DNA of 64,000 bases. Origin: Thermus oshimai DSM 12092 (lineage in GTDB: Bacteria; Deinococcota; Deinococci; Deinococcales; Thermaceae). A program made the translations under genes and the position numbers. Under the pieces are notes generated by a model, which saw only the letters and a list, made by a program, of their open reading frames with translations, was not told the origin of the DNA and made no database searches. The stretch spans positions 62,001-126,000 of the forward strand of contig NZ_KB890603.1 of the NCBI RefSeq assembly GCF_000373145.1. The letters run 5' to 3'. Positions 5,418 to 50,362 of the stretch are shown piece by piece (position 1 is the first letter of the stretch; every line of letters starts with the position of its first letter).

Positions 5418-5421
5418 GGGG

Positions 5422-5436
5422 CTCTTTGGGAAAGAG
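5422..5436 (+). repeat. Small hairpin after the lipoprotein gene
   Basis: CTCTTT-GGG-AAAGAG, a perfect six-base inverted repeat beginning five bases past the lipoprotein stop codon. No T-run follows, so it is not itself a classic terminator; it may protect the 3' end of the message. Confidence 0.35.
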
Positions 5437-5478
5437 ATGAGGCTAAACTTAAGGGATTAGAGGATTTTCTCATCCAGC

Positions 5479-5514
5479 CCCGCCGGATAAGCTCCCTATC
5501 CGGCGGGATTTTCT
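5479..5514 (+). terminator. Rho-independent terminator of the lipoprotein gene
   Basis: Eleven-base arms CCCGCCGGATA (5479-5489) and TATCCGGCGGG (5497-5507) with a seven-base loop, followed by ATTTTCTT. It separates the lipoprotein from the next gene. Confidence 0.8.
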
Positions 5515-5616
5515 TACCCTAAGACTGGGTCCAAGAAAAAAGGCCCCCGCCGCATGAGCCTCCGGCCTAATCCTTCTCAGGGTCTTCAAGGGTTGGTGGG
5601 GATAGTAAAGGACGCT

Positions 5617-26449: not shown

Positions 26450-26470
26450 TGGGTTCTTTTGCTTCTTATC

Positions 26471-26499
26471 TTGCGCTCATGGAAGGATCATGGTAGGAT
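26471..26499 (+). promoter_or_regulatory. Candidate promoter of the NYN-domain gene
   Basis: TTGCGC (26471-26476), a 17-base spacer and TAGGAT (26494-26499). It would give a leader of about 120 bases before the ATG at 26629, long for this genome. Confidence 0.5.
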
Positions 26500-26545
26500 G
26501 CCTCCGCCCTCAAAGGGGGCCTAAGCCGATAGCCGTATCCGCGCC

Positions 26546-26628
26546 CCCACCGCTCATTGAGCGGTGGGTTATAAAAGCTCTCATCCGGGGGGAGTACACT
26601 GGAGGAGCCCGGAAAGGGGCGGGCTTTT
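26546..26628 (+). promoter_or_regulatory. Structured leader of the NYN-domain gene
   Basis: Two hairpins lie in the leader. The first is a perfect 11-base inverted repeat, CCCACCGCTCA and TGAGCGGTGGG around one base (26546-26568). The second pairs AGCCCG (26606-26611) with CGGGCT (26620-26625) around GAAAGGGG and is followed by TTTT directly before the ATG. The second loop holds the only plausible ribosome site. No known riboswitch class was recognised. Confidence 0.45.
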
Positions 26629-27168
26629 ATGGAAAGGGTGGCGATATTCATAGACGGGTCCAACCTGTACAAGGGGTTGGTCCAGCACCTGGGCTCGGAC
26701 TATCGGCTGAACTTTGTGGAGTTCATCACCCTCCTCACCGCCGGGCGCAGGCTCCTCAGGGCCTACTACTACAACGCCCCCCTCCCCCCGGAGGACCCCG
26801 CGGCCAAGGCCCACCAGAGCTTCCTCAACTACCTCAAGCGGGTGCCCTACGTGGCCGTGCGCTTAGGAAGGCTGGAGAGGCGGGCGGACGGGTTCGTGGA
26901 AAAGGGCGTGGACATCCAGATCGCCATCGACATCCTGCGCCTGGCCTACGCGGACGCCTACGATGTGGCCGTCCTGGTCTCGGGGGACGGGGATTTCGCC
27001 GAGGTGGTGCGGGTGGTGCAGGACATGGGCAAGCAGGTGGAGAACACCACCTTCCACGCCCTCTCCTCCCACCGCCTGGCCCAGCAGGCGGACCGCTTCT
27101 ACCCCCTGGACGACTTCCCCTGGGACCGCCTCCGGGCCCAGACCCTCCCCCAGGCCCCAGAAGAATAA
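26629..27168 (+). CDS. NYN domain (LabA/DUF88, PIN-like) protein
   Basis: A 179-residue PIN-like nuclease-fold protein. Asp9 and Asn12 in VAIFIDGSN, Asp95 in KGVDIQIAID, and Asp120 and Asp122 in VLVSGDGDF form the usual metal-binding acid cluster. This points to an RNA- or DNA-cutting activity. Relatives such as LabA act in regulatory circuits, but the bacterial substrates are mostly unknown. It has no neighbour of related function and a long structured leader. Confidence 0.88.
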   Translation: MERVAIFIDGSNLYKGLVQHLGSDYRLNFVEFITLLTAGRRLLRAYYYNAPLPPEDPAAKAHQSFLNYLKRVPYVAVRLGRLERRADGFVEKGVDIQIAIDILRLAYADAYDVAVLVSGDGDFAEVVRVVQDMGKQVENTTFHALSSHRLAQQADRFYPLDDFPWDRLRAQTLPQAPEE

Positions 27169-49615: not shown

Positions 49616-50359
49616 GCCTAAGGCCTCCCGGGCGCTTCCCCGGTTAAGGGCGATCTCCAAAAGCCCCCCGCTTCCCAGGTAGGCCACCGCCTGGCCCACG
49701 GGCACGTCCCCGAAGGTGCGGCGGATGGGGACCCTATGCCCCCCCACCCGCACCCACCCCCCCAAGGGGGCCTGGGTGAGGGTGGCGATGGCGTTCCCGA
49801 AGCGGTCAAAGGTGAGGACCTCGCCCTTAGGCCCCGGGCCTAAGACCAGGGGCAGGCGCACCAGCGCCCCCACCGCCACCTCCGGCCCCAAGGCCTCCGG
49901 GGGGAGGCCCAGGGCCAGGTGGGCCGCGGCGGGGGCGAAGCGGTCGCGGCCGTGGAAGGTGTGCCCCCCGGGGGCCCAGCCCGGCAAGGGGTCCACCCCC
50001 TGGGGCCGGGGGGGGCGCACCCCCTCGAGGCCATAGGCCCTCCGGGGCGGGTCCAGGAGCCAGGCCAGGGTGAAGAGGCCGTTGTCGGGCCCCACGTACA
50101 TGCGCCTTCCCAGGGCGGCGATGGCCCGCCTCGAGGTCCCCACCCCCGGGTCCACCACCGCCAGGACCACCGCCCCTTCCGGGAGGTAGGGCAGGGCCTC
50201 AAAGAGGGCGTAGGCCGCCCGGCGCAGGTCCCCCGGGGGGAGGCCGTGGGCCAGGTGGATCACTCGCACCCCCGGGGCCCGCGCCCTAAGGACCGCCTCC
50301 ACCACCCCCGCGTAGGGGTCTTCCAGGCCGAAGTCCGAAAGGAAGAAGACCGGGCGCAT
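49556..50359 (-). CDS. SAM hydrolase/SAM-dependent halogenase-like protein (DUF62)
   Basis: A 267-residue protein of the family that splits S-adenosylmethionine with hydroxide to adenosine and methionine. LSDFGLEDPYAGV near residue 7, VVDPGVGTSRRAI, VGPDNGLFTLA, HTFHGRDRFAPAAAHLA and FDRFGNAIATL are the substrate-binding blocks. The same fold includes fluorinases; those need a longer loop not seen here. It overlaps surE by 60 bases on the other strand and follows the TPR-membrane gene by three bases. Confidence 0.9.
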   Translation of the reverse strand: MRPVFFLSDFGLEDPYAGVVEAVLRARAPGVRVIHLAHGLPPGDLRRAAYALFEALPYLPEGAVVLAVVDPGVGTSRRAIAALGRRMYVGPDNGLFTLAWLLDPPRRAYGLEGVRPPRPQGVDPLPGWAPGGHTFHGRDRFAPAAAHLALGLPPEALGPEVAVGALVRLPLVLGPGPKGEVLTFDRFGNAIATLTQAPLGGWVRVGGHRVPIRRTFGDVPVGQAVAYLGSGGLLEIALNRGSAREALGLKEGMEVRLEALPPGGEPL

Positions 50360-50362
50360 GGG

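Follow-up and report, generated by a model that had tools for sequence, protein, structure and literature searches.

Does the 179-base gap that separates folB from a putative nuclease gene in Thermus oshimai DSM 12092 act as the leader of that gene's message, or is it a transcription unit in its own right? The question was taken up in a window of 64,000 nucleotides (contig NZ_KB890603.1, positions 62,001 to 126,000 of the forward strand), whose numbering is used throughout. An earlier note had placed the gap at 26450-26628, and reading of the sequence confirmed this: it runs from the stop codon of folB (PF02152), its upstream neighbour, to the ATG at 26629 of a plus-strand gene (26629..27168) for a 179-aa NYN-domain protein, a putative LabA-like nuclease, whose ribosome site, GAAAGGGG (26612..26619, plus strand), is kept in the alignment. 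The protein scores 98.3 bits against PF01936, well past the curated cut-off of 24.2, and the domain is full-length, residues 3-161 covering positions 1-145 of the 145 in the profile; the PADLOC NYN/LabA-like model matches it at E 8.2e-17, and 2qip_A (E 8.9e-09) is the only solved structure related to it by sequence. The description of the gap as the longest in the window proved only roughly right, larger ones of 747, 277, 204 and 199 bases being seen when sizes are taken from a crude codon-usage gene caller. Those of 277 and 204 bases contain tRNA genes, and that of 199 bases (5418-5616) looks genuine; the 747 bases in which this caller placed no gene (49616-50362) probably hold one that it missed.

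Conservation of the gap in Thermus and its relatives

Used as a DNA query, the gap finds matches in 26 of 27 Thermus genomes. The 199-base gap of the same window, taken as control, does so in 5 of 27, its own genome included, the other four matching over 37-77 bases only. From this comparison we conclude that conservation of the gap exceeds chance, and the alignments point to strong selection upon it. The NYN gene is 92-99% conserved across the genus. In the sole Thermus genome that the search missed (G002), folB, NYN and the RNA are all absent; this joint loss is uninformative, as it may be an assembly gap. The NYN match of G020 is in two overlapping pieces (L052, L054), through a frameshift or a draft-genome error.

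Mean pairwise identity over 25 Thermus rows is 0.46 before the candidate promoter P1, 0.89 in its extended -35 region, 0.64 in the spacer and 0.87 in the extended -10; it is then 0.78 over the start and first hairpin (HP1), 0.56 in the linker, 0.85 in the second hairpin (HP2), 0.75 after HP2, 0.85 at a proximal -10-like box and 0.82 over the last 29 bases 5' of the ATG. On this alignment the left edge of the conserved unit is P1, not folB, and it persists where the upstream gene differs: folB lies upstream in 19 of the 26 loci and was not found in 7 (one of which has just 113 bases of upstream sequence), and in G006, G008 and G049 a DDE transposase gene, in which Pfam rve was found for G008 and G049, abuts P1.

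These transposase genes, of one kind, end just before P1 at L028 (G006), L202 (G008) and L203 (G049), that is, in two Thermus genomes and one of g2; the g2 genomes are presumably Allomeiothermus, and G049 we take to be Allomeiothermus silvanus. The G049 insertion has TCATC on both flanks and G024 a similar end before P1, and the site before P1 is a possible insertion hot spot.

Within the class, 111 genomes were scanned with a covariance model of HP1 and HP2, and 33 of them reached the threshold of E 0.1. The match lies upstream of NYN in 31: 26 Thermus, two g2, two Calidithermus (g3) and one g5. Each of these genomes has one strong match, on the same strand as NYN; in one, T. composti (G010), match and gene sit on different contigs. 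The matches in the other two, G037 and G027, are not the element upstream of NYN, that of G037 (34.4 bits) not adjoining its NYN gene and looking like two hairpins with a T-run. Free-standing copies were considered and rejected on the 13 of the weaker hits that were read, which look like gene-end hairpins, intragenic stretches or copies of a repeat of about 92 bases. The model matched in none of 18 Meiothermus (g4) genomes, in a search whose strict filters can lose weak matches; in G035, of family f4, NYN is preceded by a promoter and a hairpin resembling HP2, but the locus stays below the threshold.

Candidate promoter P1 and the two hairpins

The promoter that had been proposed in the gap, TTGCGC-17-TAGGAT, is present on the plus strand as part of the conserved ATCTTGCGCTCA (26469..26499): a -35 TTGCGC at 26471-26476, a 17-base spacer, and an extended -10, TGgTAGGAT, with its hexamer at 26494-26499. 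It agrees with the generic sigma-70 consensus at 7 of 12 positions, and a generic sigma-70 scan of the gap reported no promoter. ATCTTGCRCTCA occurs once per genome in 22 of the 27 Thermus; TCAYCTTGCRCTCA is found once per genome, at this locus, in 20 of the 27 and in all 5 of the g2, g3 and g5 genomes; across the class it is present in 28 of the 111 searched, three hits in family f5 included. As far as these genomes go, TCAYCTTGCRCTCA is not a motif common to many promoters. The RNA would be expected to start just before HP1, at about 26505. Two candidates in this region were discarded: a leader peptide beginning with the ATG of position 26498, which most relatives do not keep, and a CIRCE half-site in TTGCACTC, a sequence that resembles one, no second inverted half being seen.

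HP1 (26506..26520, plus strand) is a small 5' hairpin, GCCCTC aaa GGGGGC here and GCCC gaaa GGGC in most sequences, predicted to form at 37 and 70°C. Its positions are paired in 86.7-91% of alignment cells, a count from an alignment in which the Calidithermus stem is misplaced; within Thermus it is kept mainly as sequence, and in its place Calidithermus has a longer predicted stem built from other letters. A variable linker (26521..26543, plus strand), predicted to be mostly single-stranded at 70°C, leads to HP2, CCCACCGCTC att GAGCGGTGGG (26546..26568, plus strand), which is the perfect 11-base inverted repeat (26546-26556 / 26558-26568) that had been noticed from the letters.

It is HP2 that bears the marks of a selected structure. 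Its cells are 99% paired, with two-sided, compensatory changes at 5 of its 10 pairs (30 sequences, five genera); RNAalifold unaided found it and not HP1; and its predicted pairing probability at 70°C is at least 0.88 in 32 of 32 sequences. None of 500 shuffles, and no slid version, reached the covariation score of HP1 and HP2 together; 69 of the 500 shuffles reached their number of pair types, in counts that ignore relatedness and in which most two-sided changes come from a few sister-genus rows. Taken alone the sequence of the gap proves little: its single-sequence fold is no better than that of shuffles (z -0.36, 71/200), and G+C-rich hairpins of at least 10 pairs are not uncommon across the window. 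Two other readings of the palindrome were rejected: a DNA operator is unlikely, the length of the loop varying while the pairs persist, and a remnant of an IS200/IS605-like transposon does not fit a gap that has no second copy in its own genome and keeps to one locus across the genus.

Rfam, at gathering score, had no match in the gap or in five relatives, giving only one of chance level (E 6.5). The comparisons thus far describe a real, selected, uncatalogued structured element, a candidate for a new RNA family, leader RNA or small RNA, of putative function. The earlier note's suggestions of an unrecognised small RNA or of attenuation stand as candidates because HP2 is conserved, with two-sided changes, in five genera.

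Two transcription units or one leader

The same note had described a further hairpin carrying the ribosome site in its loop. The 8-base repeat on which this rested, ATAAAAGC / GCTTTTAT, is indeed present (26571-26578 / 26623-26630), but the hairpin, unlike HP1 and HP2, is not kept in orthologous loci: 62.5% of its cells pair, where slid controls reached up to 71.1% and had higher covariation scores. Another helix proposed close to the ribosome site brought no gain in the conservation test, and the fold that RNAalifold itself proposed there had no pair with two-sided changes. The stretch is better read as a -10-like box followed by the ribosome site. All 22 distinct Thermus rows have the box, TACACT in this genome (P2; 26595..26600, plus strand), as TAnACT immediately 5' of the ribosome site, and it is a candidate promoter of NYN without a clear -35; in the 12 aligned Meiothermus loci a TAnnnT box directly precedes the NYN ATG. 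We read both boxes as probable promoters of NYN itself, and on this evidence NYN transcription likely starts nearer the ATG than P1. A natural insertion bears on the same point: in T. composti an IS-like element, seen as two contig ends (L026 / L051) that carry a 12-base direct repeat and inverted ends that match, its middle falling in an assembly gap, lies between HP2 and the TAGACT box kept before NYN, and both sides look intact. This insertion and the transposase genes that abut P1 fit two transcription units, without proving them.

The reading that we favour, tentatively, is that P1 would give a short RNA, some of which ends or is processed at HP2, and that the NYN gene downstream has a promoter to itself. 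The gap would then be a separate, conserved transcription unit. Its RNA, made from P1 with the unusually conserved -35 region, would be about 65-80 nt long, with HP1 at the 5' end, HP2 as a strong hairpin at the 3' end and a variable single-stranded linker between them. HP2 is the probable end or processing point; much of the RNA would probably stop or be trimmed there, with some read-through into NYN, whose mRNA would start mainly at P2 with an ordinary short leader. Since the element keeps to the same strand as NYN, the RNA may tune that gene, by partial termination or contact with protein, rather than many distant targets. The conservation of the gap beside that of the control gap, the covariation in HP2, the one strong match per genome upstream of NYN, the left edge fixed at P1, the invariant TAnACT box and the intact halves in T. 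composti support such a short RNA, as do the T-richer tails after HP2 outside Thermus: the 12 bases that follow it hold 7-9 T in four genomes of g2 and Calidithermus and 3-7 in 26 Thermus.

Against the short RNA stand the U-poor Thermus tails themselves and the want of a clear -35 in P2. In Thermus the tail after HP2 (TTATAAAAGCTCTCA..., 26569..26594, plus strand) has no U-run; the G+C-rich hairpin of an intrinsic terminator is there, a simple scan of the gap for such terminators found none, and in this genome T-runs do end the hairpins that follow the tmRNA gene and some of the tRNA genes. The linker, where a trans-acting RNA would be expected to pair with its targets, is moreover the least conserved of the transcribed parts, and the f4 (g13) loci have a hairpin within an apparently plain NYN leader.

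It is this missing U-run in Thermus that makes a leader acting purely in cis a serious rival, and a possible, if doubtful, account of the locus. NYN would then be transcribed mainly from P1, with an mRNA leader of roughly 124 bases down to the ATG, and HP2 would be a site of binding, stability or cleavage, possibly for the NYN protein itself (autoregulation). The strict same-strand linkage to NYN fits such an arrangement, as do the U-poor Thermus tails, the f4 (g13) hairpin directly before the ribosome site and a nearly fixed distance from HP2 to the ATG in Thermus (61-64 bases in 25 rows). The distance varies in other genera, however (56-82 bases in g2, g3 and g5; 29 in G035), T. composti keeps both halves despite the insertion that separates them, and between HP2 and the ATG there is a conserved -10-like box. 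Nor was a conserved, mutually exclusive alternative fold found for HP2 or for helices near the ribosome site when the gap was examined as an attenuator or riboswitch. Attenuators and small RNAs derived from 5' UTRs share with this locus the order of promoter, structured short RNA, strong hairpin and gene; the gap differs from them in showing no antiterminator fold, no U-rich tail after HP2 in Thermus, and a second promoter-like box behind it. A protein-dependent switch may nevertheless operate in the RNA of the gap.

Relatives without the element, and known systems

NYN does not need the hairpins, as loci without them show: in f4 g14 the gene seems to have a single promoter, CTTGC...TAGGCT, before it and no such hairpins, and the 12 aligned Meiothermus loci keep NYN with neither P1 nor HP1 and HP2. 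Such loci would suit an arrangement of two ordinary promoters with a hairpin of no regulatory role, P1 being a spare promoter of NYN, or an ancestral one, and HP2 doing no more than shield the 5' part of the message or damp read-through. We consider this improbable: P1, HP1 and HP2 are kept together in 31 genomes, and HP2 shows two-sided changes. That the short RNA and NYN form a type III-like toxin-antitoxin or similar RNA-protein pair, the RNA restraining the nuclease, is scarcely credible: the order of promoter, RNA, hairpin and putative ribonuclease gene is the same, but loci of the ToxIN kind join tandem RNA repeats to a ToxN-type protein, whereas the gap has short two-copy matches only, Pfam names the protein NYN and not a ToxN family, and NYN is a core gene, too conserved across Thermus for a mobile pair and kept by Meiothermus without the RNA.

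Y RNA adjoins rsr in Deinococcus, likewise a small RNA beside the gene of an RNA-handling protein in the same phylum; the present candidate is set apart by its lack of an Rfam match and by the NYN domain of its protein. A dedicated partnership, in which the two-hairpin RNA would bind the NYN enzyme to restrain, guide or anchor it, we think very unlikely; were it so, Thermus and several sister genera would carry a one-locus ribonucleoprotein with an uncatalogued class of RNA. The protein's full-length domain match places it beside the LabA/DUF88 NYN proteins (PF01936), for which a literature search found nothing on an upstream RNA. Searches of incomplete coverage found no paper on an RNA at this locus, which we do not on that account call unpublished, and none on TTHA0187, possibly the name of the NYN gene in T. 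thermophilus HB8. Fifteen putative RNases of HB8 have been studied (PMC4229858), and the passages of that paper that were consulted do not name this NYN gene. An RNA element that occurs once per genome, has a hairpin with covariation and stays with the gene of a highly conserved putative ribonuclease is a defined target for work on a tractable thermophile, and could help to show what LabA/NYN proteins act upon.

Two further structures came to light in these searches. The repeat of about 92 bases mentioned above is dispersed and carries a strong hairpin close to the 3' end (for instance L190, 495-600, minus strand), and is present in 22 of 27 Thermus genomes at up to 47 copies per genome. The f4 (g13) loci L081-L085 and L141 carry another NYN leader hairpin, followed by YTATCA directly before the ribosome site, the outer pairs of which seem to change from CCCG/CGGG to CCCT/AGGG.
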